64,000 nt of DNA from NCBI GenBank assembly GCA_963920575.1, contig OY986973.1, forward strand, positions 9,768,607 to 9,832,606. The letters run 5' to 3'. The notes below the pieces were generated by a model. That model worked only from the letters and a program-made list of their open reading frames with translations. It did not search any database and was not told where the DNA came from. The position numbers and the translations under genes were made by a program. This stretch comes from Narthecium ossifragum. Lineage: Eukaryota > Streptophyta > Magnoliopsida > Dioscoreales > Nartheciaceae. Each line of letters opens with the position of its first letter. Within the stretch, counting starts at the first letter, position 1. Below, in pieces: positions 10,598 through 60,127 of the stretch.

Positions 10598-11562
10598 TGA
10601 AGGTCTAATAGGGGGTTGATCTTAGGCCTTATAAAAGAAAATCGAAGATGAAAACCTAGAGAGGAGGAATCTAATAAAACCGTATGCTTGTAAATGAAAA
10701 TAGCATAAATTAAAGCAAGTAAATGAAAGATACAAAAGATGAGTTTAGAGAGATTGTACCATATTTTTATAGTGGTTCGGCCAACCTTGCCTACCTCCAC
10801 TTCACTCAAGGGTCCTCCTTGAGGTTCCACTACTTGTAAGACCTTTACAAGCTATCCACCAAGCTTACGAGTGCTTGACAACCTATCCACCAAGCTTTTG
10901 GGTGCTTAACAAAATTATAATCTCTCTCAACCACTGTTGGATCTCTCTCTCATGGTCTACTTCACAACTTGAAGTAGTATTACAAAGTTAAGCTCACAAA
11001 TAAAGAGAATAAACTTGTTACAAATATTTCCCAATGATCCCTTAGCTCCCCCTAAGTTTCTTGCAAGTTTACCGCATCTCCCCTTTTATAGTTAGGCTCC
11101 TAAGCCCTCCAAATAGCCTTCCAATGACTATTTTTATCTTCTCCAACGACTCTATTTCTGACAGGCGGTCAACCGTCACATTGTCCGCCAGATCGACCGT
11201 CCTATACAAAATATGACCTTGTCATTCATCCAGTCTTCGCGGTTGAGCCATGCTTCATCCGCTAGTATTCATGGTCGACCGCCGCATCATCCACGAGTCT
11301 CTGTCATGAAGATGACACTCCATGATCATGTACCGATCAACCGCCGCTCTTCTATGGTTCACAGTCGATCGGTGGATCGATCGCCACATCATCAAGTATG
11401 GTCCACGGTCGATCCACCGATCGACCGCCACATCATCATCCATGAGCACAAAAACTTATAGATATGAAATTTAAAGCTTTATTTTTTAGGGATATTAACA
11501 TTCAAACTAAGTTTTATTATCGTACATAATTTGACATCATCAAAACAATACTAGGACTAACA
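10598..11562 (-). repeat. 3' LTR of SIRE-2, 965 bp
   Basis: Plus-strand ends TGAAGGTC and GGACTAACA. Preceded on the minus strand by a polypurine tract AAAAAGGGGGAGATT (11577-11563). Closely matches 14997-15942. Confidence 0.93.
11091..11450 (-). promoter_or_regulatory. SIRE-2 3' LTR U3 module: class I palindrome array plus TATA box
   Basis: Plus-strand 11161-11450 repeats CGGTCGACC, GGTCGATC, GATCGACCG-type half sites, several arranged as inverted pairs (for example GGTCGATCCACCGATCGACC near 11407). On the minus strand the array lies about 60 bp upstream of a TATA box (CTATAAAAGG, rc of 11091-11101). The same arrangement occurs in the other LTR at 15451-15830. A promoter role is inferred from position. 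Confidence 0.6.
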
Positions 11563-12120
11563 ATCTCCCCCTTTTTGATGATGGCAACCATTTTAATCGT
11601 AATGATAAAACCTCAATAGCTTTCCCTTAATCAATGCATCTATTTAAACACATAAAATGTGTTTTAGAGTGAAATCCTTTGATACAAACACACATAGAAT
11701 AAACTTTTCATAAAAAATTCAAAGATTTCGATTTTAAAATAAAACGTTAACCAAATAGCTTTAAAAATAATCACATAATCGCATTTCTCCCCCTTTGACA
11801 TCATCAAAAAGAAATAGTAGGGGGGAGAAGAATCACATAAAACTATCAAAAAAATATCATAAGAGAACCAATATAAGGTTTTAAAGTCAAAATTGAAGGT
11901 TGAGAATCTTCTAAAACATGATACCAAGTGAATATTAAAAGTCATTTGAAGATGAAAAATAATCAATTCTTCACAAAAAGAAGTTATCAATAAAGACTTT
12001 CTTCAACCATTTGAAGTTAAAGATAAAATAACTTTATAAAATGGAATAACAAGTTATAATGGAGGGAACATATATAAACAAAAATTAAAATATACCTCCA
12101 TTTCTTTTGATAGCAATTTG
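11563..12120 (-). other. SIRE-2 3' non-coding region
   Basis: AT-rich stretch between gag end and 3' LTR. It contains two pyrimidine boxes on the plus strand (TCTCCCCCTTTTTGATGATG at 11564 and CTCCCCCTTTGACATCATC near 11788), that is, two polypurine-tract-like motifs on the minus strand, a repetition known from SIRE elements. I see no gene here. Confidence 0.65.
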
Positions 12121-12733
12121 TTATCCACCATCAAATACCTTGAGCCTCCACTTGTCAATTTCATTTTCTTTATCTCCGAATGCAGTTAAACAAAATTTTG
12201 CAATTTCTTTTTCATCTTCGTCAGAGGTGGAGCTCAAGTTATTTTCCTCCCGAATAATCTCCTTGGCCTTTTTCTTCTTCTTTGAAGATTTCTTGAGCTT
12301 TGGACAATCGGATATGCAATGCCCAGGTTTTCTACACTCATAGCAAATAATCTTGTGCAAATAATCTTGTTCAAATAAGAAGAAGAGTTTGCTTTATCAC
12401 CTTTGGGAGTTTTCTTTCCTTGAAGTTTGAAGATCTTTCTAATTCTCCTTATAATCTTTTGCATCTCCTCGTCATCATCTTCATTACTTGAATCTGATGA
12501 ATCCTTGTATGTGGACTTGAGGGCAATAGTTTTCTTTTTCTTCCCCTCTTCATCATTGCTCCTCTCCAAATTCATCTCATATGTGATGAGAGAACCCATG
12601 AGCTCATCAAGTGACAGTTTTGATAAATCTTTCGCTTCTTCGATTGCCGTCACTTTGGGATCCCATAATTTAGGTAGACACCTAAGGATCTTTCTCACAA
12701 TCTTGTCATTAGTAAAGACTTTACCAAGAGAAC
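12121..12733 (-). pseudogene. SIRE-2 gag, C-terminal part
   Basis: Continues the gag N-terminus at 14462 after the solo LTR: SSLGKVFTNDKIVRKILRCLP, DPKVTAIEEAKDLSKLSLDE, an acidic SSNEDDDEEM stretch, and the zinc knuckle IICYECRKPGHCISDC (CX2CX4HX4C, about 12355-12310), ending at a stop near 12121. A perfect 14-bp tandem duplication at 12343-12370 within the codons before the knuckle shifts the reading frame. The same protein segment is found in SIRE-1 gag (26650-27120), confirming kinship. RNA-binding structural protein in life, broken here. Confidence 0.9.
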
Positions 12734-14461
12734 TGATGTGTTGTCGCAGGCACTCAAAAATAAATCCAATACTCTTCAAAACAAATGTAGTAGTGCGAGT
12801 ACGAGTCGATCCCACGAAGAGTGTTTAGCCTAGTTTTGTGCTTAGTGAACAAAGATAGGGGGGTTTTTAAACGAGAGGAAAACAGTAAAGAAATAATCTA
12901 AAACGAAGAAACAAATTGAATCAAGAGAACAAACCTTGGTCTGAGTCAACATCCACCATCGGAATCCAACAACTGATCATAGATGCAAGTATCAATCAAT
13001 TCATACAATGAATATTCACCGTTCGAATTAAATTCGAATCTCTCCTCGATCATAGTTAATTAGAAACAAGCGATCTAATCAACCCTAACTACTAGACAAC
13101 CTAAGACAAGCGCTGTAGATTTAATCTAGTAGCAGCGTTAAGAATAGGGAGATCGATGAAGCTAAACAAAACAAGCACAAGCGGTTGCATTTAATCTAGT
13201 TGAATATTCTTCCTAAGATCTAACAAGATCTGATCAGCAGTAAATTATTAGATCCTAGTTGCTTCGCAGATTAGAGGGATCAAACAATTCCGGATTTGAT
13301 ATCCAACCTAGCAGTAGATCGCAATGAATAATAAACTAGTAGCGCTCCTAGCAATTAGACAAGACAATCATGAAGATTTAATCACAGAAGAACATCCAAT
13401 ACTCATGTATAAACTGAACAATAAAAATAGATTAGATCTCACAGTTTCATTGATTCCGAGGTTTCAGTCTCCTCGACCAAAGATCAATATTTAGCCACGC
13501 AGGGCCATCGAGAACAATCCTCAAAAGATTCCAATAAACAAGATGAAACCTAGAAAAAATATAAAGGAGGAGAAAGAGCAGCCAAAAGTGTCCAAGAATC
13601 CCCCCTCAAACCCTAGAAAGAGTCCTATTTATAGCCTCAATTGTATCCACCCTCGGATTAGATCACAATCGTTGATTTTTGTTACTGGGAAAGTCCGATC
13701 GATCGGACCTTGGATGCTGGATCGATCGGTCTCATTAAAATCTTCAACTTCTATTCACGCCCGAGCCCGATCGATCGGACTAAGGGAGTCGGATCGATCG
13801 ATTTCGTAAAAATCCTTCGTCTATGGCTCTTCCCGAGTTCGATCGATGGTCCGATCGATCGAACTGTGTTCCTCTAAAAAGCATACGTTCTGTCACCCTT
13901 TAATTCCCAAGTCCGATCGATCGAATTATGAGTGTTGGATCGATCGGTTGAGTAAAAATCCGTAGTTTTTGACTTTTTCCGAGTCCGATCGATCGGACCA
14001 TTGGTGTCGGATCGATTGGACCCCATAGGAGCGATGGAGGGATCGATCGGATGCGTTGTGGCTGAAAAACACATGTTCTGTCACGTTTTTGCGTGGTCCG
14101 ATCGATCGGCGGATCGCTCGGACTTCCAGCTTATTTTCCTTTCTGCCATTCAGACTGCGCATCGGTATTGAAATTGCCGTAACTTCCTCTAGGAAACTCG
14201 GAATCACAAACCGTAAAATTCTCCAGAATCTAGACTTCAAGAGCTTTCCAACCATGTATGGCACATCCTCTGGTTCTTCATGAGAAGGTACAGATAAATC
14301 TTTAAAGTTGATCCATGCACTCTTTTCAGCTTCTTTTCGACTTAAGGGCTTCAATTGCATCCTAAATCAAAATATAAGAATAATGAGTGTATTTAGGAAC
14401 TAAATAAGCACAGGAGACTAAGTATTAAGGGATAAAAATATAACATTATGCATTCTCATCA
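12734..14461 (-). repeat. Solo LTR of the Athila-C family inserted in SIRE-2 gag
   Basis: 1728 bp, plus-strand ends TGATGTGTTG and TTCTCATCA, with a perfect 5-bp target duplication AGAAC (12729-12733 and 14462-14466). It splits gag codons that rejoin across it. Its central part (13560-14290) is closely similar to 59240-59930 of the solo LTR at 58326-60127, including the palindrome array, TATA box and the GCATGGATCAAC-like end. Short open frames inside (13543-13809, 13926-14360) are shadows of the array. Solo LTRs arise by recombination between the two LTRs of an element. Confidence 0.92.
13626..14130 (-). promoter_or_regulatory. Athila-C solo LTR U3 module: class III palindrome array plus TATA box
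   Basis: Between 13693 and 14130 the octamer GATCGATC recurs many times, mostly with CC/GG arms; GTCCGATCGATCGGAC at 13693-13708 is a perfect 16-bp palindrome. On the minus strand the array is followed after about 60 bp by TATAAATA (rc of 13626-13633) in GGCTATAAATAGGACTC. An equivalent layout is at 59269-59772. Confidence 0.62.
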
Positions 14462-14932: not shown

Positions 14933-14996
14933 CTCGATTTAGGATCATCTAAGGGTTGTTGCACTACTAAAATAGAGACCCAACTCTGATATCAAT

Positions 14997-15942
14997 TGAA
15001 GGTCTAATAAGGGGTTGATCTTAGGCCTTATAAAAGAAAATCAAAGATGGAAACCTAGAGAGGTGGAGTCTAATAAAATCATATGCTTGTAAATGAAAAG
15101 AGCATAAATTAAAGCAAGCAAATGAAAGATACAAAAGATGAGTTTAGAGAGATATCAACAAAAATTTATAGTGGTTCGGCCAACATTGCCTACGTCCACT
15201 TCACTCAAAAGTCCTCCTTGAGGTTCCACTACTTGTAAGACCTTTACAAGCTTTCCACTAAGCTTACGGGTGCTTGCCAACCTTACAATCTCTCTCAACC
15301 ACTGTTGGATCTCTTTCTCTCAAAGTCTACTTCACAACTTGAAGTAGTTTTATAAAATTAAGCTCACAACTAAAGAGAATAAACTTCCTACAAATATTTC
15401 CCAATGATCCCTTAGCTCCCCCTAAGTTTCTTACAAGTTTGCTGCATCTCTCCTTTTATAGCTGAGCTCCAAAACCCTTCAAATAACCTTCCAATGGCTA
15501 TTTTTACCTTCTCCAATGGCTCTTTAATGACTCTATTTCTGACTGGCGGTCGACCGTTGTATCGTCAGCCAGATCGACTGTCGTATACAAAATATGGCCT
15601 TGTCATTCATCCAGGTTTCACGGTTGATCCATGCATCATCCGTCAATCTTCACGGTCGACCGCCGCATCATTCCCGAGCCTCTATCATAAAAATGACACT
15701 CAATGGTCGATGTACCGATCGACTGCCTCTCTTCTATGGTCCGCGGTCGATCCACCGATCGACCGCTGCATCATCAAGTATGGTCTGCGGTCGATCCACC
15801 GATCGACCGCCGTATCATCCGCGAACACAAAAAGTTATACATATGAAATTTAAAGCTTCCTTTTTAAGGGATATTAACATTCAAACTTAAGTTTTATCAT
15901 CATACATAATTTGACATCATCAAAACAATACTAGGACTAACA
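14997..15942 (-). repeat. 5' LTR of SIRE-2, 946 bp
   Basis: Ends TGAAGGTC and GGACTAACA on the plus strand. On the minus strand it is followed at 14996 by ATTGATATCAGAGTTGG, a mutated TTGGTATCAGAGC Met-tRNA PBS. The U3 carries class I palindromes at 15545-15830 upstream of a TATA box CTATAAAAGG (rc of 15451-15461). Confidence 0.93.
15451..15830 (-). promoter_or_regulatory. SIRE-2 5' LTR U3 module: class I palindrome array plus TATA box
   Basis: GGTCGACCG/CGGTCGATC half sites at 15545-15830, with pairs such as GGTCGATCCACCGATCGACC (15746 and 15790 areas). The array ends about 85 bp upstream of the minus-strand TATA box. Compared with 11161-11450, individual CpGs have changed but the paired layout is kept. 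Confidence 0.6.
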
Positions 15943-16518: not shown

Positions 16519-16999
16519 TGTTACACCCCGACCCAGAAAACCCGTCCGGGCCGAGACGTAAGGAACCTAAACCTATTCAATCATCTCTAATGCATTTATA
16601 TAATGATTTCCAAATCTAATTTGAACAATCTGGTCCTCCAATTCATAACAAAATCAGCAGAGTCTCTTTTATAATTATAGCACATGAAACCTGTACATTT
16701 TACAATTTCAACTTGAACAATATCACAATTGTAAGTAACTAATTATTACATTTCTCAAATGTCTACATTAAAGAATATTACAAATTTTCTCGAATACAAT
16801 TGGATTAAGAATCATATAATTTTGTCCTCAAATACATCAGATTATACATCAACTTATACATCACAATATAAAACTGTAAGGAAGCTGTTAAAGACACCTC
16901 GAAGCTTCAAGTCCTCGATCGCCTCGACATGCCGCACCATCTTCTAGAAGAACACCTAAAAGAAGGAACTGCATCGACCTGCATGTCCGATGCAGCCCA

Positions 17000-19139
17000 T
17001 GTCACGCCCCGATCCGCGAAAGCCCAACCGGGCCGGGCGACGCGAACCGGAACCTAACGAAACACGAAAAATTTGGCGAGGGTTCTCTCTAACCTATTGG
17101 TCTCCCTAGCAATTCACCAAATCAACACCCTCAATTTAAAAGACAAAAATTTAACAAGCCTTGAACCTCAGATAAAAAAGCTCAAGTGAATTTAATATAC
17201 ATATCCTCCGAGAGGGGTAGATTCAAATACAACATTGCTCCCGTAGGAGACTAACTAACATAGGTCTAAAGCTGTAAAAGATCGCCACCTCTCAAACTCC
17301 ACCTGGCGCCGCCATACTGCCGACCAACTACCCGGTAGGGGCCACCGAAGAGGAGCTAATGCCGGCACCTGCAAAACGCAGCCTGGGTAGGAGTGAGCAA
17401 CTAAGCTCAGCAGGGAAACTACACTACGACACACAGAAGGAAGAGGGAAACACAACAGTGTCGCCCTCAAGTAAGACCTGGGTGTATACAGAGGTCCCAT
17501 AACCCCACCGCGTCCCTAAGGCCCACGATCATGGTCTTCCAGAAAAACTGGTCACATGTCAGGTCACACTCATTAAGCGAGAACTAACACTGCTAGCCCA
17601 CAAGCAGGGAACGACACTGCAGGCGAAAAATGACACCGCTGAGTAGGAAACCCCTCTACTCAAGGGTCAACACAGTGGGACACCGGCTACACCTCAGCAT
17701 CCGACTCGAGGTCGACACGACCTCTACAATCATCAAGCTACAGGTGTACCAGTCATCTAAGCCTATCACCAAGTCCGATTGGACACCACAATTCAAATAT
17801 GATCCAAACTACCCAACCCCGGTCCTAGGGCTAAATCCGAGCTTCCAGCCTCGGGACGGCGACCCACAGATCGCCCACGCCCTAACCATGTAACTAATGC
17901 ACAACAGAGATGCATGTGATGAACATACACATATAAACAGTTAAGGCATGCAGTAGTATGTGATGATAGCATCACACGGTCTGGGCTCAGCACACTGCCG
18001 GCCCGGGGTGGTGAACAGTTATTAAAGGTTTGGAACTGATGCAGTGGTACACCACCAACTGCCAACCAGTTCACCAGCAACCTGCATCGGGAAGCAGCCC
18101 AGCAAACAACAGAGACAAACCACGCATGTAAAAGCCCTCGACGCATGCCGGCATGCAGGGCTAAGGAAAGCTGTAGGGCCACTCGCCCGCTTATCGAAGA
18201 TCGATCATCAGTGCGACAGAGAACATCCTTCTATATCATGCCAAGGATGATCGATCCTTCCTCTCAGAAAGATCGATCATCCTCGCGATAGAGGACATCC
18301 TCTTTGCCGCGCCAAGGAAGATCGATCCTCCTCACGACAAGGGGGATCCCATGCTACCCAAGGCACACGATCGATCATCTCCAATCAGATGATCGATCCT
18401 TCATCGGGTTCAGTATGACCAACAAGAAGGATAGATCTTTCACCAAGAAAGATCGATCTTGTTGGGTTCTCCGGCGAACCTCCAGCGAGAAATACCGTCG
18501 GAAAACTCTACCAAATCCCACAAAACCTTGGGATCTGGTAGTACGAAGGACCACGAGTTCAAAACCGGTGGAAATACTACAAACTAGCATGTATTCATCA
18601 AGATCTAAGCAAAATAAGTTTCAATCAAACTCAAACTCACAAAACCGGAAAAGAATCATAGGTAGGATCCCTACCTAGGCAATAGCTGCTTCAATCCCAG
18701 CTGCTAGGCCTTGGATCGTCCCAAATCTCTCCAAAATCTGGCGGCTCTGAGCTCAAGAACGCGGATTTCATAAGGGATTCAAGGAAGAGGGTTACGTCCG
18801 TTTTATAGACAAACGAACTGACCTATGAAAGATTGATCCTTCTCTGAGGGAATATTGATCCTTCATGACGATCACACCTTGACTTTCTGGCATCAAAAGA
18901 TCGATCTTTTAGCAAAAAAAGATCGATCCTTCATGTGTAGAAAGCTAGACTTGGGCTAAACTTAAGCCCAAGCCCGGATCTTTCGATCCCGGGTCCACCT
19001 AACCTTTCTAATCAAACACTAACATAAACATGGTCAGTGTGTGCACACGCAGGTGTGGAACAAACCAATAAGGCACAATTTACCAAATTGCCCTTGCGGT
19101 CTACAACGAGCCAAAGGGGTTGAGGGACATGTCCTCACA
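17000..19139 (-). repeat. Solo Tekay-type LTR, 2140 bp
   Basis: Plus-strand ends TGTCACGCCCCGATCCGCGA (17000) and GTCCTCACA (19139). Flanks GCCCA (16995-16999) and ACCCA (19140-19144) look like a 5-bp target duplication with one change. It is inserted in the matching part of a related LTR. It aligns along its length with Tekay-A 5749-7958 and with the split LTR at 24538-60481. Open frames at 17255-17500, 17793-18182 and 18304-18678 have no recognisable protein. Confidence 0.88.
18190..18945 (-). promoter_or_regulatory. Class II palindrome arrays and TATA box in solo Tekay LTR
   Basis: Sites of the GATCGATC type with A/G-C/T arms (AGATCGATCT, GGATCGATCC) lie at 18832-18945, about 25-30 bp upstream of a minus-strand TATA box TATAAAA (rc of 18801-18807). 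A second, denser set lies at 18190-18465, downstream of the TATA box and so probably transcribed. The corresponding TATA position in the LTR piece at 58123-58325 is mutated. Confidence 0.5.
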
Positions 19140-21996: not shown

Positions 21997-22447
21997 TCAT
22001 TCATTATCCTTCTCATCCTCGCTGTCTTCTTCCTCAGAATCATAGTCACTAAGCAGCGGGGTCGGTTGACGGTCAAGGTCATCCGATGCATATAGTAACT
22101 CAGGAGGCATCAGGAGAGCAAGGTAAAAAAAGGAACGTGGAGGCACTACAATCTTTGAACCGCCGGGACTCTCGAAAGATACCCCGGGATCAAGTTCTGG
22201 AGCATGCTGAATGTCATATATGATGCGGGCAAGCAAATCCATAGGAGGTAACGGCCCTAAGAACTCAACACCAGTAGGATAGGCATTAGAGGAATCAACA
22301 AGTGTAGCGGATTCAGAAATTACTCTAGGTGTAAAGGATAAGACCATTGGTGGCGATGGTGGTGTCGGGGAATCGGCAGTGCTCATCGAGTCATCGTCTG
22401 AGGAGAACCATGACGCATTGTTTCTGCGTCGGGTGCGATCGGTTGAT
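21997..22447 (-). pseudogene. Unrecognised acidic ORF in the truncated Athila internal region
   Basis: From the Met at 22447 the frame gives about 150 residues (MQSTDRTRRRNNASWFSSDD ...), Ser/Pro-rich at first, hydrophobic in the middle (FFYLALLMPPELLYAS), and very acidic at the end (SEEEDSEDEKDNE). The frame is open further upstream only because it reads into Tekay LTR DNA, so its true 5' end is lost. It lies where Athila elements can carry an env-like or other extra ORF, but I see no family motif, signal peptide or clear membrane segment. Confidence 0.35.
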
Positions 22448-22564
22448 TGCATTGTTGTTTTTGGACCCCAAGGGAAATTTGGCAAAATTGCGCCTTGTCG
22501 GTTGGTTTCACAGTACACACACAACATTGGATAGATACATGTAATTGATTAGACCCTTATGTGC

Positions 22565-22643
22565 TCTCTCGATCAGAAGATCGGAGCTCGATCGGGAACG
22601 ATCGAAACGGACGGTCGAGATCAATTCCATTTCTCTATAAATA
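22565..22643 (+). promoter_or_regulatory. U3 promoter of plus-strand Tekay LTR: GATC/TCGA sites plus TATA box
   Basis: Sites GATCAGAAGATC, GAGCTCGATC, ACGATCGAAAC lie at 22568-22612, about 25 bp upstream of TATAAATA at 22636-22643. The same layout is at 50567-50638 in the related LTR, where the TATA box reads TATATAAG. Confidence 0.6.
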
Positions 22644-22663
22644 CCCCCCTCTCCTTTTCTTCT

Positions 22664-22664
22664 T

Positions 22665-22714
<50 letters not shown>
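22664..22714. repeat. (TC)n microsatellite
   Basis: About 25 uninterrupted TC units just downstream of the LTR TATA box, within the probable transcribed leader. It explains the Ser/Leu and Arg/Glu repeat frames seen on either strand. Confidence 0.95.
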
Positions 22715-22717
<3 letters not shown>

Positions 22718-24995: not shown

Positions 24996-26119
24996 TGTTG
25001 ATACTAACCTTATTTTGATGATGCCAATATACAGTAATGATAAAATACATGTTTAATATTTATTACCCCTTTAATTGGAAATCTTAAATTTAATATTTAA
25101 GTCATTTTTGTACTGACGGTCGATGCAAGGATCGACCGTGGGAATGTGACAGTCGATCCATGAATCGACCGTGTTGACGCAAGGATCAGTGCATCGACCG
25201 TGGGAAGCGTTTTTCTTCACAGAGCCTTACGGACGATGCGACGGTCGATGCGGCGGTCGACCGTGGCGCATTAATGAAGAAAAGTGAAGAAGCAACGGCC
25301 GATCGGTGCATCAACCGTGGGAAGCGTTTTTCTTGACAGAGCCTGACGGACAATGCGACGGTCGATGCGGCGGTCGACCGTGGCGCATTTATGAAGAAAA
25401 GTAAAGGAGCGACGGTCAATCCGAGCATCGACCCTGGAAAGCGATTCTCTTAACAGAGGCTGACGGTCGATGTCACGGTCGACCGTGAGAGTGACGGACG
25501 ATGCGTGGATCGACCGTCGAGCAAAAAGGCTGAGTTTTTATACGTGATGGACGATGCATAGATCGACCGCCAACAACGCGCAGAGTAAAAAAACTAGCCG
25601 TTGGAGAGTTGCAGAGAGCCATTGGAGCTCCTTGTTGAGCTGATTGAAGCCCAAATATAAGTAGTTCCTTGATTAAACTTGCTACAACTTTTATCATTAT
25701 TATTGAGATCATCTGAGCAAGTTTTAGAGAAGCTTTCTACTTATTCTCTTTTGTTCTACAACCTTTGTAAACCTTCTTCAAGTGTGAAGAGGTATCTTGA
25801 GAGATATTCAATAGCAAGTGGCTGTGAGTGTAAGGTCACCAAGCACCAGGAAGCTTGGAGGAAAAGCTTGTAAATGATTTGCAAGTAGTGGAACTTCAAG
25901 GGGAGCCTTGGGAGAAGTGAATGTAAACCAAGAGTTGGGTCGAACCACTATAAAATTGGTGCCATCTCTCTAACCTTCTTAATATTATTCTTGCATGCTA
26001 TTTTGTTTTAGTTTCATTCCATCTACAAGCTTTTAAGGTATTAGTTCTCTCCTACCTAGTTTTTCCATTGATCTAAATTTTCGAAAAAGAGTCCAATTCA
26101 CCTCCCTCTTGGACCTTCA
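24996..26119 (+). repeat. 5' LTR of SIRE-1, 1124 bp
   Basis: Begins TGTTGATACTAACC and ends GGACCTTCA directly before the PBS. Differs from the 3' LTR by scattered substitutions and by a short deletion near 25175 relative to 33620-33660. Contains the class I palindrome array and TATA-like box. Confidence 0.95.
25110..25661 (+). promoter_or_regulatory. SIRE-1 5' LTR U3 module: class I palindrome array plus TATA-like box
   Basis: About ten inverted pairs of CGGTCGAT and ATCGACCG (spaced 5-8 bp, so each pair can fold as a short stem) between 25110 and 25572, with an imperfect longer unit of about 125 bp repeated (25190-25310 and 25300-25430). AAATATAAG at 25653-25661 follows about 80 bp later and is the best TATA candidate. 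Confidence 0.6.
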
Positions 26120-26120
26120 A

Positions 26121-45305: not shown

Positions 45306-45482
45306 AGGTAGCTGGCGAGTTGTGTTTTTCTTCAAGAAAAATCCGTTCCAATGCTGCAAAAATTCCAAAAAATTATCAGAAAAATCCTAAAAAAATGTAA
45401 AATAAAGTAAATAAAAGTAAAAATCTAACTACGCTCAGAAAAAGAATTAAGAGAAAATTAAATCGATACTCCGTTGTAAATC

Positions 45483-48220: not shown

Positions 48221-48223
48221 GAT

Positions 48224-49389: not shown

Positions 49390-50345
49390 GAGTCCCCGCT
49401 TTCCCTTTGAGAACGTAGTTGCTGATCACCTGTCAAGATTAATGGTGGAAGTATGGAAAATGACCCACCAATCATGGATGACTCTTCGTTGATGAGCAAC
49501 TCTTTTCAGTTGCACGACTGCCCTGGTATGCGCATATTGTCAATTATTTGGCGACATGTGAGATCCCTTCCTTTTGGAGTGCGTAGGATAAGCGTAGATT
49601 TTTTGTTGAGGTAAAGAAATTTTATTGGGATGATCCTTGTCTGTTTAAGTATTGTCCTGATTAGATTATCGCCGTTGTGTCCCTGATTATGAAATAGAAA
49701 GCATCATTACATTCTGTCACTCTCATGCATGTGGAGGTCATTTTTCGATAGAAAAAAACTGCTGCTAAAATTCTTCAATGTGGTTTTTACTGACCTACTA
49801 TATTTCATGATGTTAACATTTTCTGCAGATCCTGTGATGGATGCCTAACATTAGGAGCTTTATCTAGGAGACATATGATGCCTTTGAACCACATTCAAGC
49901 TGTAGAGATTTTTGATTGTTGGGGTATAGACTTTATGGGACCCTTTCCTTCTTCTTTTGGCTATTTATATATATTGTTGGCTGTGGAGTACGTGTCTAAG
50001 TGGGTGCAGGTTATTGCATGTAGGAATAATGATCATTCCACTGTCATCGAGTTTTTTAAAGAGCATATTTTGTCTAAATTTGGTACTCCTACGGTTATTA
50101 TTAGTGACCAAGGATCGCATTTTTGTAACCGCTCTTTTGAGACTTTGATGCGCAGGTATGGAGTCACACATAAGGTTTCCACTGATTATCATCCACAGAC
50201 GAATGGCCAAGCTGAATTAGCCAATAGAGAGATAAAGCAAATCCTGGAAAAGACAGTGAGCCCAAACCGAAAAGACTGGTCCTTGAGGCTATCAGACGCG
50301 TTGTGGGCATATCGCACTGCCTACAAGACGATCCTGGGGATGTCG
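49390..50345 (+). pseudogene. Athila-C RNase H end and integrase, 5' part
   Basis: Starts with the RNase H end FENVVADHLSRL (about 49410), then a link DEQLFSVARLPWYAHIVNYL, an HHCC zinc finger (FCHSHACGGHF, CRSCDGC; about 49708-49843), IFDCWGIDFMGPF with the first Asp (about 49910), TVIISDQGSHFCNRSFE with the second Asp and NGQAELANREIKQIL with the Glu. The DDE triad is intact. Stops at 49588, 49663 and 49793 and a shift near 49480 lie in the N-terminal half. Broken at 50345 by a solo LTR exactly within ILGMSPFRLVYGKP. Confidence 0.92.
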
Positions 50346-50566
50346 TGTGAGGGCCCGTCCCTCTGACCTGGCTCGACCGCGTGGGTCGAGAGCCGGTTTC
50401 CTGTTGGTTTGGTTCCGCGTCGGGCACGATCTGGCGATCGTGTGGCGGTTTGGACCCCGGGGGCATTTTGGTAAATATGCCCTCTGGTGGTCGGTTTCAC
50501 ACCCGCGTTCCACACACTGCCTTGGATTGATGTATGTGTTTGATTAGAATCCCTAGGTTGCGTCCG

Positions 50567-50638
50567 ATCGGAGGATCGGAGCTCGATCGGGAAAGATCGA
50601 ATCGGACGGCTGAGATAGATCCGGAGTTTCTATATAAG
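50567..50638 (+). promoter_or_regulatory. Tekay-B LTR promoter: GATC/TCGA sites plus TATA box
   Basis: CCGATCGGAGGATCGGAGC and GAGCTCGATCGGGAAAGATC sites lie about 20-60 bp upstream of TATATAAG at 50631-50638. The pyrimidine-rich region after it resembles a transcription start leader. Confidence 0.6.
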
Positions 50639-51278
50639 CCATGTCCCTTTCTTCTCTTTCCTTCTCTTCTTCTCCTATCGTTTTCTTCCCCTCTCTCTCC
50701 TTCAGCTGAGCTAGGGTTTGGAGACTTGGGTTTCGGAGCGCGAATCTTGACGGCTTGACCGGCTGGACGCGTGGAGGAGCTACCCTACTTGCTCAAGTAG
50801 GTGTTTCTACCTCGATCCTTGGATCGGGTTCTCCTAGGATAGGATTATTGCTCTTTTGCTATAGGAATACATGTTAGAATGCTATGTAGCTCTTTGTGCA
50901 TGTAGTGTGAAGGATTAGAAGTATTCCTATCTGGCTTTTTCCGTATTCTAACGGTTGGTTTCCGTATTATCGCCGTTTTGTCGGTTTTCGTCCATTTGGA
51001 CCTAGATAGGAGATTTAACCGTCAAAAACTGGATTTCTTCATTCCATTAGCTTCCCCATTGTTAAATACACTTGCTTGCAAAATTTCATCTTATTCCAAC
51101 TTGATTTGATCCTTGAAATCCAAGAAAATGGATTCCCGACATTATTTTGAAGAACTGTGCCTGAGGCTCGACGGTCGATCGGTGCATCGACCGTCAAGCG
51201 TTGATACGCTCCTTCGGGGCTCGACGGTCGATCGGTGCATCGACCGTCAAGTATTGTTTTACTCTTTCTGGGCCTGGC

Positions 51279-53604
51279 TGTCGCGCCCCGACCCGCCGAG
51301 CGCACCCGGGCCGGGGGCCGCAAGGGGAAGACACCTACAACTACCAGCCTCGACTGGCGGAAACAGCCGAGACAAAGGCCCAGCTGGCGGAAACAGCTGG
51401 ACACCACAGAGAAAGAGCGAAGCAGGAAACAAAAGCTAACAACATCTATTACAAACACATAATAGAGTTACAACAGGAGAAACCTAGATACAACAGATCT
51501 AGAACAAGGGGTAAACAGTCCCCAAAAAAGAAAGCAAGCCACACTGCCCACCGGGGTCTCCACGAAGGCGCAGACAAAGCCATCCTGACCCTCAGACATG
51601 GTCAGGAGCCGCCGCGCTGCCACTGGACGACCGACGGGGCAACGGTTGGGAGAACCGGGCACCAGCACCTGCAACAAACACAGTCCAGGTAGGCATGAGC
51701 AACAGCTCAGCAGGGTCCCACTCCACAACCCCCACAAGAAAGGCAAACCCCAAGACCAACCCTGAAGCCAAGTGCTGAGGCTTGCCAAGGATCCCATAAA
51801 TCCTATCGATAACCCGAAGGGTCCCTGTCCCGAGTACGTCTCCGACTGCCACTGTCTAGGGATGGACAAACTCCGACTGTCCCTGACACAGGGTGGACAT
51901 GACGCTACTGGTATGACACCCTTCCCCAAGCGGGACCTCCACACTTGGCGGAACGACCGAGGTTACGACAACCACCTCCCAGCACTCCAAGCCACAGAGC
52001 CACGATCCCTGACTCCCGACCAGGCACTAAGTCTAAGGACTGCCAAGGTTCCATAACCCTATCGATGCCCCAAGGGCTCCCGACATGAACCTTGTTCATC
52101 ACCCTAAGCACCCAACAGGGGAAAAGGTTCCATGCGGGATCACCCTCTGCACTAACAGAGGAACAGAACCGTGCAGGACACCTCCACTTAGCACCTGGGT
52201 ATGGAGTACAAGGGGGAAAAACACCCACCCAAACTAGCCTAGAATGTCTAATGCACAGTTAAGCAAAACATGGCAGATAGATATAAAGCTGTAAACAAGC
52301 AACAAGGCAAAGGCACACCTTCGGCCCATTTATACTAAACACTCCCGAGGGTCATGACTCCCTCGGTTCACCACAAAGCGGTAAAGGGCATACCTTCAGC
52401 CCATTTATTCTAAGCACCCCGAGAGACATCACCCTCTCGGTTCAACCACAGAGCTGTAAACATTCACGCATAAATCACTACAGGATAAACCCCGAGGGTA
52501 AAACCGTAAAGACCATTTACATGCGAAGCCCTGCGGGCAAAACAGCATTTAAAACAAGTAAAACCCTCTCTGCTGCTCAAAGGATCGATCCTTCCCGAAG
52601 GGAGGATCGATCACCCAAGAAACAGTGAGCCTCCCTCACTGTCGAGCCAAAGAAGATCGATCACTCCTTCCAAGGAGATCGATCTTTTTGGTGACAGAGG
52701 GCACCCTTCCAGTCGCTCCAAGGAAGATCGATCCTTCTCCCAGGAAGAACGATCATTCTCGGGACGAAGGGTAACCAGGCTGACCCAAGCCTCATGATCG
52801 ATCTCCTCTCATAAGAAGATCGATCATGTGGCTGGGCGCAGCAACTAAAACCAGAGGATCGATCACTCCATCCAGGAAGATCGATCATGATGGGTTCCGA
52901 TGTACTTCCGGCCGGGAAAACCGCCGGAATACACAACCAAACCCCACCAAACTTGGTGGGCTGGTAGATCCAAGAACCACGAAGCTCCTCAAGGCTTCAA
53001 AACCGGAAAAACACCAACTCCACAAGGAGATCTAAAACGAAAACCAAAACCGGATTCAAAACCTTGGAAAACAACCGGAGTCTAGAATGAGAACCCTACC
53101 TCCTCAACGCAGCTTCGATCCACAAGTCCTACCCCAGGACCTTCCTCGCCTTGCCACGAACCCAACGAGCCTTCAAGCTCCCGGAAAGATGGCCGGAGGA
53201 GGAAGAACGGAGGAGGAGAAGGAGCGGTCTCAACCGGGGAAGAAACAGAGCCGCGCGAGGGAGAAGAAGAAGAGAGGAAGAAAGGAAGGGGGGAAAGGGC
53301 GGGTAAGGCCGGGGAAAAGCCGGCGAACCCGGGGAAAAGCCGGGGGAGGGGAGGGAAAGTCTTCCCTCCCCTGACAGGGGAAGCGACGGCCACCGCGGTG
53401 GCCGTCCTTCGAAAGCCACCGACAAGGACTTCCAGGCACAGGGAGGATCGATCCTCCATGACCAAAGGATCGATCATCCCTGCCCAGAAGTGCAAACTTG
53501 GGCTGGAAAACGGGCCCAAGCCCAGAACACCCAAGCTAGGGTCCACCTAACCTTCCTAACAAACACAACCATCAGCTATAGGAATAGAGGGGCAGGTCCT
53601 CACA
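51279..53604 (-). repeat. Solo Tekay LTR nested in the Tekay-B solo LTR
   Basis: 2326 bp, ends TGTCGCGCCCCGACCCGCC and CCTCACA, perfect target duplication CTGGC (51274-51278 and 53605-53609). It is the innermost layer of the nest. It carries class II palindromes at 52575-52890 and 53440-53480 and a purine-rich tract at 53170-53370. The many open frames are shadows. Confidence 0.93.
52575..53480 (-). promoter_or_regulatory. Class II palindrome arrays in innermost Tekay LTR
   Basis: GGATCGATCC, AGATCGATCT and TGATCGATC-type sites: two at 53440-53480 near the LTR start on the minus strand, and about a dozen at 52575-52890 further downstream. I could not find a convincing TATA box between them. 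Confidence 0.4.
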
Positions 53605-53870
53605 CTGGCGGTCGACCGTCGGATCGACCGTCGGGCTTTGTCGGGATTTTGGCCTCCCACGGTCGATCGATCGATCGACTGTGGGTTTTCTCTCTTTTTC
53701 ATCCCGCCTCACGGTCGACCGTCGGATCGACCGTCGCATCGTCCGTGAGGCTCTGTCTCGTTTTGGGCTCCCCACGGTCGATGGGCCGATCAACCGTCGC
53801 CCAGGTGGGTTTCCTCGTTTTGGCGTCACGGTCGATCGCTGGATCGACCGTGACATCGTCCGTGACCCCT
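53605..53870 (+). repeat. Class I palindrome array in Tekay-B LTR (second half)
   Basis: Pairs such as GGTCGACCGTCGGATCGACC, ACGGTCGACCGT and GGTCGATCGCTGGATCGACC continue the array begun at 51168-51255 on the other side of the nested LTR. It lies well downstream of the TATA box at 50631, so in transcribed LTR sequence. The motif is the one typical of the SIRE LTRs. Confidence 0.6.
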
Positions 53871-55110
53871 TGGACTTAGTTTTCTGGCTTTTCTTGGATG
53901 GATTTGATTTGTAATTAGTATCTAAGTATGTTGGGAAGAGTGTATGTGGATTTTATGGGGGTTTTCAAAGGAATTCCATCTGATTTGAGATCGATTCGAG
54001 TATTCTTTCCTTTTTGGGAAAATCTATGGTTTCACTTGCACTTAATACATTGTTGATTGTAGTTAAATGCTTAATTGGTTGCCTAACCATTAGCTAGCTA
54101 TGAGTGCTAGCTAATGAGGAATTGTGGAACCTTAACCTCTTGTCGGCGAGTGCCGAGGGCTATTGTATATCTGTTGGACTTATAACTGATGATGTGACAT
54201 GTAGAGACATCTAGGGTAGATGTTTGCCTAGACCCATGCATTGTGTGCATTAGAGGCATTTGAGGTTAGGCGGGCGATGGTTTGGGTCACCGATCCGAGG
54301 CTCTTAGGTAGCTCGGATCTAGCCTTAGGATCGTGGCTGGGTAGTCAGGTTTAGGGTGTGATTGTATGATCAAGTCTCATGTCTTTTGAGGATTCACGCT
54401 AGTTGACTCTGGTCAGTGTTTGAGGTTTAGAGGTCGTGTTGTCTTTCAAGGCCAAGTGCTAAGGATGCAATCGATGTGTTCCCGACGTGGTCCCCAGGCA
54501 GTGGTATCCCTGCTGGGTAAGGGTGATCCTGCATGGTATTGTTCCCCTGTCAGTGCTTAGGGTGATCTTGGTAACGTGTCCAAGAGAGAGGTTCATGACA
54601 GGAGCCCTTGGGACATCGATGGGTTATGGGACCCGTAGCATCCGTTAGACTTAAGCTGGGAGATAACACTGTTGTTGTTTTCCTCCTTTCAGTGTGCCGT
54701 AGAGTAGAACCCTACTGAGCTTATCGCTCACTCCTACCCGGGTTGCGTTTGCAGGTGCATGCGGCAGTTCTTCTTTAGTGGAGCCGGCAGGATCCGCCTT
54801 TGGCGGCGCGAGTACATCCAGAGGCGCTTGAGGTTGCTGGAGGATTACCTGTTGTACATTTTGATATATGTATATGTTGTAAACATTTTGAGGACTCTTG
54901 GGATTTTGTATAAATCTGTCGCTTGGGAGCTTTTGTATCAAATATGAACTGTACAACTTGATGTTATATGAATTGAATTTGTTTCGCCTCTGGAATACAA
55001 TTGTTTAAATTATCCGTCTTTTCCGCTTTGTATCGCGCCAATTGAAGATGAATAGTGTTAGGAACCCTCACGCCCCGTCCTGGATGGGTTTTCTGGGTCG
55101 GGGTGTGACA

Positions 55111-55511: not shown

Positions 55512-56632
55512 TTGAAGCCAATCTCAGAGATGATTGGACCACCGTCTACCTTGCTTGAGAAATTCGGCCACCATGAGGAGCCTTGGGCAAGATTTCAGCT
55601 ATTTTGTCAGGTGGCCTCGCTCCTATTTAAATTTAGGATTCTTGTCTATTTTATTTAAAATTTAAACCCGCACCCTATTTTATTCTATTCTGATGATTAG
55701 CAAACATTGAGGACAATGTGAATTTCAGGTTGGGGGGTGTAGGCATACATGATCTCATGCATGCTACTTTATTGAGTTTAATAGTGTTGAATTGAGTATG
55801 TTGCTAGAACTTGTACATGAGCTGAAATTTTTATGCTTATTATACATGTTGCTTTCAGATGGATTGCCTATACATCGATTGCATGTGTGATAACCTGAAG
55901 GTAAAATATCATGTGACTCACACACGAACACTTTATGTGAAGTGGTAATTATACTTACTAGAGGAATGAGCATGGTATTGTCAACCTAGACCATGATTTC
56001 AGCATTAGCTAGTGTTGAGTATTGCATGCAGAGAAAAAAAAAAGTTCTGGAGCTTGATCAAGTTGTGCCTAAACGACTATTAGGTGATCTACTGAGTAAC
56101 CGGGTGTTCTTGCCTTAGGAAGTGGAGAGCTCACGTAAAAAGGTAGAACCACTGATAGCTTAAAAAAAACTATTCAGTGTTTTGCTAAGTAACCGGGTCT
56201 CTGCGCCTCAAGAAGCGGAGAGTGCTCGCGTAAAAAAGCAAAATGTCTGATAGTTGAAGAAAAAAAAAAGAAAAACAGAAAGAGCATGTTGTACTTAAAG
56301 TCTGAGGGTTGGATGATTGGTCATGAAGATAGTGGTGTGTTTGGACTAATTGTGGGTAAAAGTTGCTTCTGTACGTAACATTTATTTGTCACGTCACATG
56401 TGTTCTTCTGGATGGTGATTAGCATGTTTGAAGTGTAGAAGTTAATTTTATATGTTGGTAATATGTGTATGAGTATAAGAAGTTTTCATGCTCTGTACTA
56501 TATAAAACACTATTGACCTGATAAGGTAAAATTTTTGTCATGCATGTCTACAGCCTTAGACCGTTGGTGTGCTTAATTATATCTTATGCGCTTTGAATTG
56601 CTAGAGACTAGCAATAAGCTGGTTGGGGGGTG
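55512..56632 (+). other. Athila-C 3' non-coding region
   Basis: No gene seen. It begins with TGGCCTCGCTCCTATTTAAA, contains a GGTTGGGGGGTG-type sequence at about 55726-55740, the paired box at 56090-56250, and ends in the PPT CTGGTTGGGGGGTG (56619-56632). The earlier GGTTGGGGGGTG copy may be a second (central) PPT. Confidence 0.75.
56090..56250 (+). other. Paired Athila 3' box (diverged copy)
   Basis: AGTAACCGGG at 56095-56104 and again at 56188-56197 (period 93). Each is followed by a short hairpin-like stretch (TTGCCTTAGGAAGTGGAGAG; TGCGCCTCAAGAAGCGGAGA) and CTCACGTAAAA or CTCGCGTAAAA. The cores AGTAACCGGG and CGTAAAA are exactly kept although the sequence between has diverged from 40125-40275. 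Confidence 0.7.
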
Positions 56633-58122
56633 TGATGAGTGCATGAGACTGCACTCTGAACATGACTAAGAGCAGCTTATTTGCTGAGTTTTCATGATTA
56701 ATATAAATGATTTTGTCAGTATATGTTGTTATACAAAGTTATTTGTATTATGTAGGAAATTGAAGCAAAGATGGGTCTTTAACACCAAAATTGTATCTTC
56801 TCATGAAGAACCAGATGATGTTCCATAAATGGTTGGAAATCTCTTGAAGTCTAGTTTATGGAGAATTTTACGATTCGTGATTCCGAGTTTCCTAGATGAA
56901 GTTACGGCAATTTTAGTACTAATGGCGTAGTCTGGATGGCAAAACAGTAAATACTCAGGAAAGAAAGATCGATCATTTTCCCTAAAAGGATCGATCCTTT
57001 TATGCAGACAGACCTGACAGGGAGCATACTTTTCAGACGATCACAGAAGGATCGATCCTCCTTTCACTCAAAAATATTGAGGAAATCGTCGAGGAGAAGG
57101 ATCGATCTTTCTCCTATCAAAGGATCCATCCTGCTATCCATCCTACTGAGAAGGATTCATCATGCTATCCATCCTACTGAGAAGGATCGATCATGCTTCT
57201 ATCAAAGGATCGATCTTCCTCGGGCGTAGCCAGAAATTGAAGATTTTGATATTAAAGGATCGATCTTACCTTCGCAGTGAAGAAACTTAACGACTAAGAT
57301 CTAATCCGAGGATGGAGACACTTTAAGGCTATAAATATGACTCTTTCTAGGGTTCCAAAGAGGTTTTTCTACAGAGCTTTGGAGGGGAGAAAAGCAAGAA
57401 AGAAGATGAAGAAATCTCCATCCATGGTCGGGTAAGCCACGGGCATGGCGGACGGATGACTTAGTGAGGATTAGGGTTCCTTCTTCATCATGGTTGATAG
57501 TTTTAATCTTTATTGTTAAACTCTTTTCTATGTATTGAATATTTAATGATTCTATCTATTGTTTACCTACTTTATCTCGTGAAATCTTTACTATGGATTG
57601 CCGATTGTGAGAGTTGGTATTGTGTATTCTTAGACATCTAATTAGATAGAGTTAGGGCTTTGTCCCGATGAACTTTTGCTATACGTTGCCTGTAGTGACA
57701 GCCGGTATCATATATTCTTAGGTTTGGATTGGATGAAGTTAGAACTATAATAAGGAAGAATCAATCGTAGGAAGAGACATTTATATATTTTGTTAGATTC
57801 ATAATTCCATATCTTTCGGTTAAGGTGATTGGGATGTGAATCCCTTAACTGAGTATTGAATGAACCGTTGGTAGAAGAAGAACCTAAGTCCGAGTGAAGT
57901 GATTCCCAATGCCTAGCCTTATCAAAATCCTGATATCTTTAGTTAACCTTACATTATAATTAAATCCTTTTATCTAATTTAGTTAATTCTTAAGTTCTCA
58001 TTTGTCTTCAATTCATTGTTATTTGTGTTTTGGATATTTTCTGCTTGTCTCTCTGTGGTTTCGACCTTTCTTATGTTATGCTACACTGCACCGCTGTGTT
58101 GTGACACATTTGAGTGATATCA
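56633..58122 (+). repeat. 3' LTR of Athila-C, 1490 bp
   Basis: TGATGAGTGCATGAGAC to TGAGTGATATCA, preceded by the PPT. Shares its ends and middle with the solo LTRs 12734-14461 and 58326-60127 in opposite orientation (for example TTCTCATGAAGAACCAGATG near 56797). The open frames 57002-57229 and 58002-58277 are LTR shadows. Confidence 0.93.
56965..57337 (+). promoter_or_regulatory. Athila-C 3' LTR U3 module: class II palindrome array plus TATA box
   Basis: About nine GATCGATC-type sites with GG/CC arms; AAAAGGATCGATCCTTTT at 56984-57001 is a perfect 18-bp palindrome. TATAAATA at 57330-57337 (GGCTATAAATATGACTC) follows about 70 bp after the last site. The solo LTRs of this family have the same TATA context but class III arms. 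Confidence 0.65.
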
Positions 58123-58325
58123 GTAGAATCCCTATCTCGACTAGAGCAGCTTTAATCCCAGCTGCCAAGCCAAAGATCGCCCTCAATCTCTTCCAAATCC
58201 AGCCAGATCTGAGCTCAGGAACGGCGGATTTCAAAAGAGATTCAAGAAGGGGTTGCGTCCGTTTTCTAGACGGATGAACTGCCTTATGAATGATCGATCA
58301 TTTCCTCAAGAGATGATCGATCACC

Positions 58326-60127
58326 TGATGTCGCTCAAATGTGTCACGCACAGCGGTCGTGGTGCAGTACAGCATAAGAGAGGTCGAATCCCACAGAGAG
58401 ACAAGCAGGAAAGATCCAGAAACACAGATAACAATGAATTGAAAACAATCAAGAGCGATGAAGGTTAAGAAAATAGATCGGAGATGTAATGGTAAGATAA
58501 AGTTAACGAAAGAAATCAGGGTTTGAATGAGGCTAGGCTTCAGGAATCACGTCACTCGGATTTAGGTTCTTCTCTTCTCAATGGTTCATATAATACTCAG
58601 TTAAGGGATTCACATCCCAATCACCTTAACCGGAAGATATAGAATTATGAATCTGATAAAATATAAATGTCTCTTCCTACAATTGGTTCTTCCTTTTTAT
58701 AGTTCTAACTTCATCCAACCAAACCTAAGAATACACGATACCGGCTGTCACTACAGGCAACGCGCAGCAAAAGTTCATCGGGACAAAGCCCTAACTCTAA
58801 CCGGATCTCTAAGAATACACAATACCAACTCTCACAATCGGCAATGCATAGCAAAGATCTCACGGTATAGAGCCCCAACCTTGTCTTACCAGATCCCTAA
58901 GAATACACAATACCAGCTGTCACTACGGGCAATGCATAGCAAAGGTCTCGCAAGACTCGGCAGGAGAATCAAAAGATATAACTATGGGATCACAATATCA
59001 TAAAAGAAGCATGACTGGATTTATAATAATGTTTAACCACAAAGCAATCTGTGAAGATCCAATACATAAAAAGAGTTTAACAATAAAGATTAAAAACATG
59101 AACCATCATTGGAGAAGAAACCCTAGTCCTCGCTAGATCATCCGTCCGCCATGCCCGCGGATTACTCGGCCATGGATGGAGATGTCTTCATCTTCTTCCT
59201 TTGGGAAACGTCCAGAAAGAGCCTCCAAAAACGTCCAAGAAGTCCCCCTCAAACCCTAGAAAGAGTCCTATTTATAGCCCCATAGTCTCTCCATCAACGG
59301 ATTTGATCTAAACCGTTGATTTAATTCACTGGGAACGTCCGATCGATCCTTCTCGGGGTGCTGGATCGATCGGATGCGTTAAAATCTTCAACTTCTAACT
59401 TCGCCCGTGTCCGATCGATCGGACTAAGGGAGTCGGATCGATCGATTTCGTAAAAATCCTCCGTCTTTGGCTATTCCCGAGTCCGATTGATGGATCGATC
59501 GATCGAACTGTGTTCCTCTAAAAAGCATACGTTCTGTCACCCTTTAATTCCCAAGTCCGATCGATCGAATTATGAGTGTTGGATCGATCGGTTGAGTAAA
59601 AATCCGCTGTTTTTGGCTTTTTCCGAGTCCGATCGATCGGACCATTGGTGTCGGATCGATCGGACCCCATAGGAGGGATGAATGGATCGATCGGACCATG
59701 TTCAGCCAAAAAACACATGTTTTGTCACGATTCTGCGCGGTCCGATCGATCGGCGGATCGCTCGAACTTCCAGCTTATTTTCCTTTCTGCCATTCAGACT
59801 GCGCCATCGGTACTGAAATTGCCGTAACTTCCTCTAGGAAACTCGGAATCTCGAACCGTAAAATTCTCCAGAATCTAGACTTCAAGAGCTTTCGAACCAT
59901 ATGTGGCACATCATCTGGTTCTTCATGAGCAGGTACAGATTAATTTTTGAAGTTGATCCATATACTCTTTTCAGCTTCTTTTAACCCCAATTTCCTGCAT
60001 TTTCCAAACAACCATGTGAAGCAACATATAGATGTAAAAATAGTAATAAAGATGCTGTTTAATGATAATAATTTAGCAATTGAGATGGTTATAAGACTGT
60101 TCAGAGTGCACTTTCATGCACTCATCA
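58326..60127 (-). repeat. Solo Athila-C LTR, 1802 bp
   Basis: Ends TGATGTCGCTC and TGCACTCATCA on the plus strand, with perfect target duplication TCACC (58321-58325 and 60128-60132), placed between two palindromes of the host Tekay LTR. The 58560-58960 part contains a three-fold repeat of about 80 bp (AAGAATACAC ... GGCAATGCATAGCAAAG). Open frames within are shadows. Confidence 0.93.
59269..59772 (-). promoter_or_regulatory. Solo Athila-C LTR U3 module: class III palindrome array plus TATA box
   Basis: GATCGATC sites with CC/GG arms at 59338-59772 (GTCCGATCGATCGGACC near 59626), then about 60 bp downstream on the minus strand TATAAATA (rc of 59269-59276) in GGCTATAAATAGGACTC. Nearly identical to 13626-14130. 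Confidence 0.62.

Follow-up and report, generated by a model that had tools for sequence, protein, structure and literature searches.

In Sireviruses, a lineage of Ty1/copia retrotransposons, the long terminal repeats (LTRs) contain palindromic, CpG-rich repeated motifs (RM) at high copy number upstream of the TATA box, and an extra RM cluster lies upstream of the ENV gene (Bousios 2010, PMC2829016). As far as that paper's account of the motifs goes, the RM are specific to Sireviruses among Ty1/copia elements, the islands end about 45 bp past the RM with the TATA box on average 37 bp later (∼82 bp in total), and the factor reading the RM is left open. In maize the Copia palindrome also tops the structured regions of Helitrons, which sets a precedent for sharing across element classes; for Ty3 elements the same account reports no obvious peak (Martin 2023, PMC10760457). 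A third system, as outlined by Voichek 2024 (PMC11525189), is a GATC motif bound by GATA factors, whose effect in the 500 bp downstream of plant start sites depends on dose. Here we analyse palindrome arrays in a 64,000-nt stretch (the window; C11:9768607-9832606) of the 379.4 Mb genome of Narthecium ossifragum. The arrays are real and occur in three distant lineages: Sirevirus (Ty1/copia), and the Athila-type and Tekay-type chromovirus lineages (both Ty3/gypsy). An earlier reading of the letters alone (the original prediction) had proposed such TCGA-cored arrays upstream of the TATA box.

The octamer GRTCGAYC occurs 108 times in the window, mostly in clusters, against 2.7, 4.2 and 13.0 copies expected from Markov models of order 1, 2 and 3. 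Palindromic octamers are most often centred on TCGA (91, followed by GATC with 44). Twenty stretches of 10 kb, picked blind at round coordinates on 11 large contigs, held 146 copies against 8-14 expected, and in this sample GATCGATC was the third most frequent palindromic octamer, behind two AT microsatellite words. Genome-wide, spaced pairs far exceeded a control in which the pattern was read backwards: 22,096 versus 76 for ATCGAT-N17-ATCGAT, 20,581 versus 0 for CGGTCGAY-N6-RTCGACCG, and 25,969 versus 155 for ATCGAT-N42..44-ATCGAT (48-50 bp). Although the sites are abundant overall, seven of the 20 stretches had no GRTCGAYC and three had one; the arrays are therefore genome-wide but patchy.

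The window is a nest of LTR retrotransposons, which we mapped by self-comparison, sequence reading and Pfam domains, with approximate LTR limits. The domains separate Copia from Gypsy, and a chromodomain is present in element 1-7958; the names SIRE, Athila and Tekay, like the placing of the SIRE elements in Sirevirus rather than another Copia lineage, are assumptions that we adopt, in part from the original prediction. SIRE-2 encodes a copia-type gag (Retrotran_gag_2) and RVT_2, and SIRE-1 was assigned through its similarity to SIRE-2. The Athila and Tekay carriers have Ty3-type gag, RVT_1 and chromodomain, and so are not Sireviruses. The elements are:

LTRs 10597-11562 and 14996-15942, minus strand: SIRE-1, a SIRE-type Ty1/copia element
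LTRs 24995-26120 and 33440-34601, plus strand: SIRE-2, a SIRE-type Ty1/copia element
About 12.75-14.46 kb, 56631-58122 and 58326-60132: Athila-type LTRs
1-7958: Tekay-type element with a chromodomain
16999-19139, about 22345-24994, and about 50345-55110 (split by 51269-53599), plus fragments: Tekay-type LTRs

The arrays fall into two classes. Class I units, CGGTCGACCG and ACGGTCGAT-N6-ATCGACCGT, were found in SIRE and one Tekay family, and the class II unit, GATCGATC, in Athila and most Tekay elements. The arrays and related sites are given below, with gaps to the TATA box measured from the end of the last GRTCGAYC:

25095-25600, plus: SIRE-2 5' LTR U3 array, class I; 6 GRTCGAYC and 15 TCGA; TATA 25656, gap 87
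33545-34060, plus: SIRE-2 3' LTR U3 array; 8 GRTCGAYC and 19 TCGA; TATA 34136, gap 87
31262-31475, plus: SIRE-2 internal array between pol and the next open reading frames (ORFs); 4 GRTCGAYC; TATA-like box 31532
11155-11440, minus: SIRE-1 3' LTR U3 array; 5 GRTCGAYC; TATA 11090, gap 100
15535-15830, minus: SIRE-1 5' LTR U3 array; 6 GRTCGAYC; TATA 15460, gap 87
13685-14125, minus: Athila LTR U3 array, class II, flanks TCC..GGA; 10 GRTCGAYC; TATA 13633, gap 63
59330-59770, minus: Athila LTR U3 array; 12 GRTCGAYC; TATA 59276, gap 64
56955-57275, plus: Athila LTR U3 array, same LTR family, different flanks; 7 GRTCGAYC; TATA 57330, gap 64
18820-18945, minus: Tekay LTR array upstream of TATA 18807; 2 intact GRTCGAYC (gap 91), decayed copies closer
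18190-18470, minus: second array of that Tekay LTR, downstream of TATA 18807; 7 GRTCGAYC, the first 349 bp past TATA
52575-52900, minus: array of the nested solo Tekay LTR (51269-53599); 9 GRTCGAYC; aligns with 18190-18470; TATA not located
53435-53490, minus: GATCGATC pair of the nested solo Tekay LTR, closer to the LTR start
43715-43915, minus: array in a Tekay LTR fragment; 5 GRTCGAYC; resembles 18190-18470 and is taken as its counterpart
51160-51262, plus: class I array of the Tekay LTR at about 50345-55110, part one; first site 542 bp downstream of TATA 50631
53600-53875, plus: part two of that class I array, past the nested LTR; 9 GRTCGAYC; homologous to the SIRE U3 arrays, in opposite orientation
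22560-22630, plus: Tekay LTR without GRTCGAYC here; loose TCGA/GATCG words precede TATA 22636
50545-50625, plus: Tekay LTR without GRTCGAYC here; loose TCGA/GATCG words precede TATA 50631
58280-58330, minus: Tekay LTR fragment, GATCGATC pair 23 bp apart
60155-60210, minus: Tekay LTR fragment, GATCGATC and ATCGAT (one copy of each) at a distance of 26 bp

The distance between array and TATA box is near constant within a family: 87, 87 and 87 bp, with one of 100 bp, in SIRE, and 63, 64 and 64 bp in Athila. The original prediction had given about 83 and 80 bp for the SIRE-2 LTRs, 85 bp for TATA 15460 of SIRE-1, and 63, 62 and 70 bp for the Athila TATA boxes 13633, 59276 and 57330. At TATA 11090 it had given 60 bp where we measure 100, and at the Tekay TATA 18807 its 25-30 bp runs to a decayed GATTGATC, the nearest intact GRTCGAYC lying 91 bp away. 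Its ten cases represent roughly three lineages, being made up of two pairs of SIRE LTRs, three copies of a single Athila LTR family and three Tekay LTRs. In Tekay-like contexts among the matches listed, the usual distance from the end of the last palindrome to CTATAAA is 22 bp. Around the 111 CTATAWA words of the window and the 20 sampled loci, 37 site-TATA pairs within 200 bp were upstream and one downstream; genome-wide, GATCGATC lay 15-45 bp from CTATAAA in 4,293 cases upstream and 272 downstream.

SIRE-2 carries a further array inside the element. A TATA-like box at 31532 follows 83 bp past its last GRTCGAYC and 64 bp past its last TCGA, and an ORF with an ATG start near 31674 comes next, so that the segment 31262-31690 is a candidate internal promoter. 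We take the ORFs beyond it to be an env-like gene; one piece, 31789-32235, matches Transposase_32 below the cut-off.

Pair spacing within the arrays is sharp. In the window and the 20 loci the distance from GGTCGA to TCGACC in class I is either 0 (28 cases) or 12 bp (37), with six others within 20 bp. Class II GATCGATC pairs are 21, 22 or 23 bp apart in 11, 28 and 17 cases, compared with six at 17-20 and four at 24-26 bp. With two core classes and two pair spacings, more than one factor could be involved. The remaining adjacent class II distances peak at 39, 49, 59-62 and 70-72 bp, and once near-duplicates and the 21-23 bp pairs are removed, a scan from 7 to 16 bp gives a best period of 10.5-10.6 bp (R 0.41, n=68), which is the helical repeat of DNA. 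The SIRE-2 LTR arrays contain 15 and 19 copies of TCGA, with 6 and 8 GRTCGAYC, and those of SIRE-1 contain 6 to 9 TCGA. The CpG observed/expected ratio is 1.41 in 17 array stretches (4.5 kb) and 0.68 in the rest of the window, or 1.04 and 0.62 when TCGA is excluded; by this ratio the arrays qualify as CpG islands of the kind formed by Sirevirus RM.

A second recurrent word, GACAGA/TCTGTC, was spotted by eye and afterwards counted in the window and the fetched loci. It is present in the spacers of 17/31 arrays, compared with 2.75 in random stretches, and the sole hexamer outscoring it, GGACGA, is a variant within class I units. TGACAGA or its complement occurs in SIRE, Athila and Tekay arrays and in one of the fetched loci, L024. 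TGACAG is a core bound by TALE homeodomain proteins, and GACAGA is a possible second protein site.

Several properties tie these arrays to the Sirevirus RM as Bousios 2010 presents them. The SIRE core matches the Vitis RM CGGTCGACCG exactly, the RM-TATA distance of ∼82 bp compares with 87 bp in SIRE, and the ENV cluster has its counterpart in SIRE-2 31262-31475 with its four GRTCGAYC. The CGG-CCG core is present in the class I unit (SIRE and one Tekay family), and high copy number upstream of the TATA box holds for SIRE and Athila and in part for Tekay, where arrays occur on both sides. Since that paper's pages on the motifs describe Sirevirus arrays, their position before TATA, the ENV cluster and the identical Vitis motif, the statement that no description of such arrays was known is wrong for the four SIRE cases (PMC2829016). 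In contrast to that account of the RM, the arrays here are found also in two Ty3/gypsy lineages, show 12 and 21-23 bp pair spacings and extend past the TATA box; moreover, class II GATCGATC has no CGG-CCG, which among the motifs given in the paper is absent from Tnd-1 ACAATCGATTGT alone. A survey of open-licence literature, judged by title, abstract start and term counts, found no report of such arrays in Athila or Tekay. The Sirevirus arrays were thus already known; presence in two Ty3 lineages with a common core, fixed spacings and Copia-Gypsy array homology did not turn up in the same survey.

To assess conservation we used eight alignments of related arrays, with octamer columns defined in one sequence. 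Octamer columns were identical in 371/384 cases (97%) and other columns in 1761/2202 (80%); for the most diverged pair, from Tekay, the figures were 56/56 and 138/217. The Athila array at 56955-57275 has other flanks and spacers that hardly align with those of its family, yet it retains the same octamer and the 64-bp gap. CpG retention was scored in five aligned pairs, three with arrays, one of which consists of paralogous Athila LTRs. Array TCGA was kept in both copies at 40/46 positions, other array CpG at 71/103 and CpG outside arrays at 67/111; a Tekay LTR pair without an array kept 47/64. TCGA differed from outside CpG (Fisher p 0.0012), bearing out the original prediction that CpG is retained in the motifs, and from other array CpG (p 0.025), whereas across these five pairs other array CpG and outside CpG did not differ significantly (p 0.20). 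In the three array-bearing pairs, mutation in the arrays is at least as fast as elsewhere. Judged from these alignments, selection appears to keep the palindrome core while the spacers diverge.

The sequence around the motifs had been described as unrelated between superfamilies. This fails for SIRE and one Tekay family: the arrays of SIRE-2 and the Tekay LTR at 50345-55110, which run in opposite directions within their respective LTRs, form an alignment of 267 bp at 71%. SIRE U3 arrays compared with the class I arrays of this LTR and of a copy at locus L009 gave spacer z-scores of 2.7 to 6.2 in six comparisons, in two of which the best of 200 shuffles equalled or beat the real score; SIRE-2 and Tekay class I share 49/74 spacer columns. 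We read this as a class I array probably shared by common descent between Copia and Gypsy elements. The class II arrays of Athila and Tekay have the core in common and no spacer homology (z −0.2 to 1.5, four comparisons), which would fit independent gain or complete turnover. One shared inserted repeat as the origin of the arrays, an outcome that the original prediction had named as its refutation, is accepted for SIRE and one Tekay family, and unsupported for Athila versus Tekay.

Such patterns might also be expected of neutral minisatellites, generated by slippage or template switching in reverse transcription, with cores kept by gene conversion in two orientations and no function. Tandem duplication is plain (117-bp units in SIRE-2 and ∼72-bp spacings in class II), flank symmetry characterizes entire arrays, the outcome expected under homogenisation, and descent could explain the array that SIRE shares with one Tekay family. 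However, this account has to face the same octamer in Athila and Tekay arrays devoid of spacer homology, a core kept in 8/8 alignments despite diverging spacers, the bias towards positions upstream of TATA and the retention of CpG. We consider it very unlikely.

Four extra loci (L021-L024) were fetched for their unusual TATA contexts. L022 is a Tekay relative, L023 has an Athila-like array and L021 is unclassified. In L024 a class II array (3138-3406) lies 3' of an ORF for a transposase of the Mutator-like element (MULE)/FAR1 type and may belong to that element. Other element types may thus carry such arrays (L024, L023). An inverted-repeat type TTCGGTT..AACCGAA was observed near the class II array of L024 (L024:3138-3748, L023:3700-3860).

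Palindromes can also act as RNA, and hairpin transcripts of the arrays might be cut into small RNAs that guide silencing, a role already proposed for the LTR palindromes of maize Sireviruses; symmetry rather than sequence would then matter. Ten mapped arrays were folded and each compared with 60 dinucleotide shuffles. Sense strands gave z-scores of −3.5 to −9.6, and 8/10 arrays contain a 110-nt window below −40 kcal/mol, the cut-off given in Martin 2023 (PMC10760457); the exceptions were Athila 57k (−36.4) and the upstream array of Tekay 18k (−34.3). The palindrome-rich region of maize Sireviruses, as characterized in PMC10760457 and PMC5311732 (Bousios 2017), likewise combines LTR palindrome arrays with strong predicted folding, but the maize miRNA-like regions show no obvious Ty3 peak, in contrast to the two Ty3 lineages with arrays here. 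Paired palindromes are complementary beyond the octamer in 43/56 pairs without duplicates (38 spacers), and for the 82 non-redundant octamers of the 108, flank complementarity exceeded that of shuffled partners to six bases, not at seven or eight. Bousios 2016 is said to place small-RNA hotspots in the LTR palindromes of maize Sireviruses.

This covariation, strong across sites, was rejected as proof of structure: shuffling flanks within arrays abolished it (288/572 observed versus 298.5 expected, p 0.90; 22 arrays, 143 sites), with p 0.07 to 0.69 at pair positions 1-5. Each array has its own flank dialect, often symmetric, and single sites do not covary. Loop length was likewise discarded as a common constraint; in CG-bearing inverted repeats loops are spread over 6, 8 and 12-15, so spacing rather than the loop is what is kept. 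Antisense strands fold about equally well, the core is conserved in sequence beyond mere symmetry, and an RNA hairpin leaves the location just before TATA unexplained. An RNA function as the reason for the arrays therefore seems unlikely to us. Because all ten folded arrays were stabler than their shuffles on both strands, they could nonetheless template small RNAs whatever keeps them.

Second Tekay arrays lie downstream of the TATA box, at 18198-18470 in the window, L004:3577-3899 and L010:5513-5698. The Tekay class I array (51165-51250 with 53605-53870) is likewise downstream, and similarity places the arrays at 52580-52890 and 43742-43902 there too. These could be GATC-motif enhancers bound by GATA factors: they share with the published enhancer a multi-copy, GATC-containing motif downstream of the start site. 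The location fits, the second Tekay array starting about 350 bp past TATA; GATCGATC contains two GATC; and AgatcG is listed among the six strongest 6-mers of Voichek 2024 (PMC11525189). The consensus YVGATCBR, however, is mostly unmatched by the arrays, and we disfavour the GATA/GATC reading. In the 1 kb past TATA of three promoters, 18807 had 0 matches versus 7 GATCGATC and L010 had 3 (2 in palindrome-free bins) versus 7, L004 being the better fit with 8 matches. Upstream, where the other arrays sit, the GATC effect presented by Voichek 2024 is minimal. GGTCGACC contains no GATC, and nor does the class I full palindrome. Of the alternatives we weighed, this one has the slimmest chance.

We consider it reasonably probable that the arrays act as cis-regulatory DNA modules close to the promoter, that they are of the Sirevirus repeated-motif kind and that a host factor reads them. 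The unit would be a palindrome with core GRTCGAYC, paired at 12 bp (GGTCGA..TCGACC type) or 21-23 bp (GATCGATC type), and the array would be set at a family-specific distance before TATA, Tekay adding a second array farther downstream. We infer cooperative binding to the palindromes by a host protein acting as a dimer, or by a small group of related proteins; the bound protein would recruit the transcription machinery, with copy number setting the strength. Copies would multiply by tandem duplication and be homogenised within an array, yielding one flank dialect per array, and a palindromic core would permit homogenisation in both orientations, making symmetric dialects possible. Selection would maintain the core, and a Copia and a Gypsy lineage would have one array type in common through descent, with a conjectural direction of exchange. 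That SIRE-2 repeats the combination of array and TATA-like box before an internal ORF counts for this promoter-module reading, as do the 10.5-10.6 bp period of the remaining class II distances and the GACAGA found in the spacers of 17/31 arrays. A common control element in distant LTR families, as originally predicted, is supported by the octamer core, spacings, TATA bias, CpG retention and core conservation; its confinement to U3 is not.

Several observations weigh against arrays as promoter modules. Despite their upstream bias, arrays also occur downstream of TATA and inside elements, and the 350-700 bp range shows no preference for either side (53 pairs upstream and 57 downstream in the window and 20 loci). 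Two promoters counted in the original prediction, TATA 22636 and 50631, have no GRTCGAYC array: none is found within 600 bp upstream, and looser TCGA words end 17 and 30 bp before TATA. Tekay element 1-7958 has single palindromes only and no array before TATA. Among the matches listed, most upstream rows are Tekay copies, so the 4,293 upstream cases are largely one lineage counted repeatedly. The 97% versus 80% contrast is somewhat helped by alignment anchoring. With the 21-23 bp pairs kept, the best class II period becomes 12.8 bp, a period of 10.5 bp giving an R of 0.31; these pairs and the remaining distances also differ in phase (0.77 for the latter).

A broader joint claim would be that a single host transcription factor, or a few paralogues, reading GRTCGAYC pairs drives distant Copia and Gypsy elements, and perhaps a Mutator-like DNA element. 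Elements would have converged on the site, exchanged arrays and kept the CpG core against decay, and the factor, with tens of thousands of sites, would be a master regulator of much of the mobile fraction. Taken whole, and drawn from sequence comparisons, this is a tentative proposal that we think possible rather than probable.

Other features of the window were noted in passing. The solo Tekay LTR at 51269-53599 sits inside a second Tekay LTR and, judged by eye, has a CTGGC target-site duplication; within it, 53385-53406 is a perfect 22-bp GC-rich palindrome that is not of the TCGA type. A pure (TC)23 tract (22669-22714) lies directly past the Tekay TATA 22636. At 45170-45320, between the LTR/primer-binding-site side and the gag ORF of an Athila-like minus-strand element, there is a weaker cluster of CGATCGGTCGG-like words with one GRTCGAYC.

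Arrays known from one lineage and now found in two more point to a shared host control system. Regulatory arrays, on the present data, seem able to move between Copia and Gypsy elements, so that the evolution of control regions would be partly uncoupled from that of the genes under their control. If one promoter-proximal site is common to distant lineages, much of the genome's mobile DNA may owe its level of activity to a single host factor, and the reader of Sirevirus palindromes, left open in the account of Bousios 2010, would become experimentally testable.

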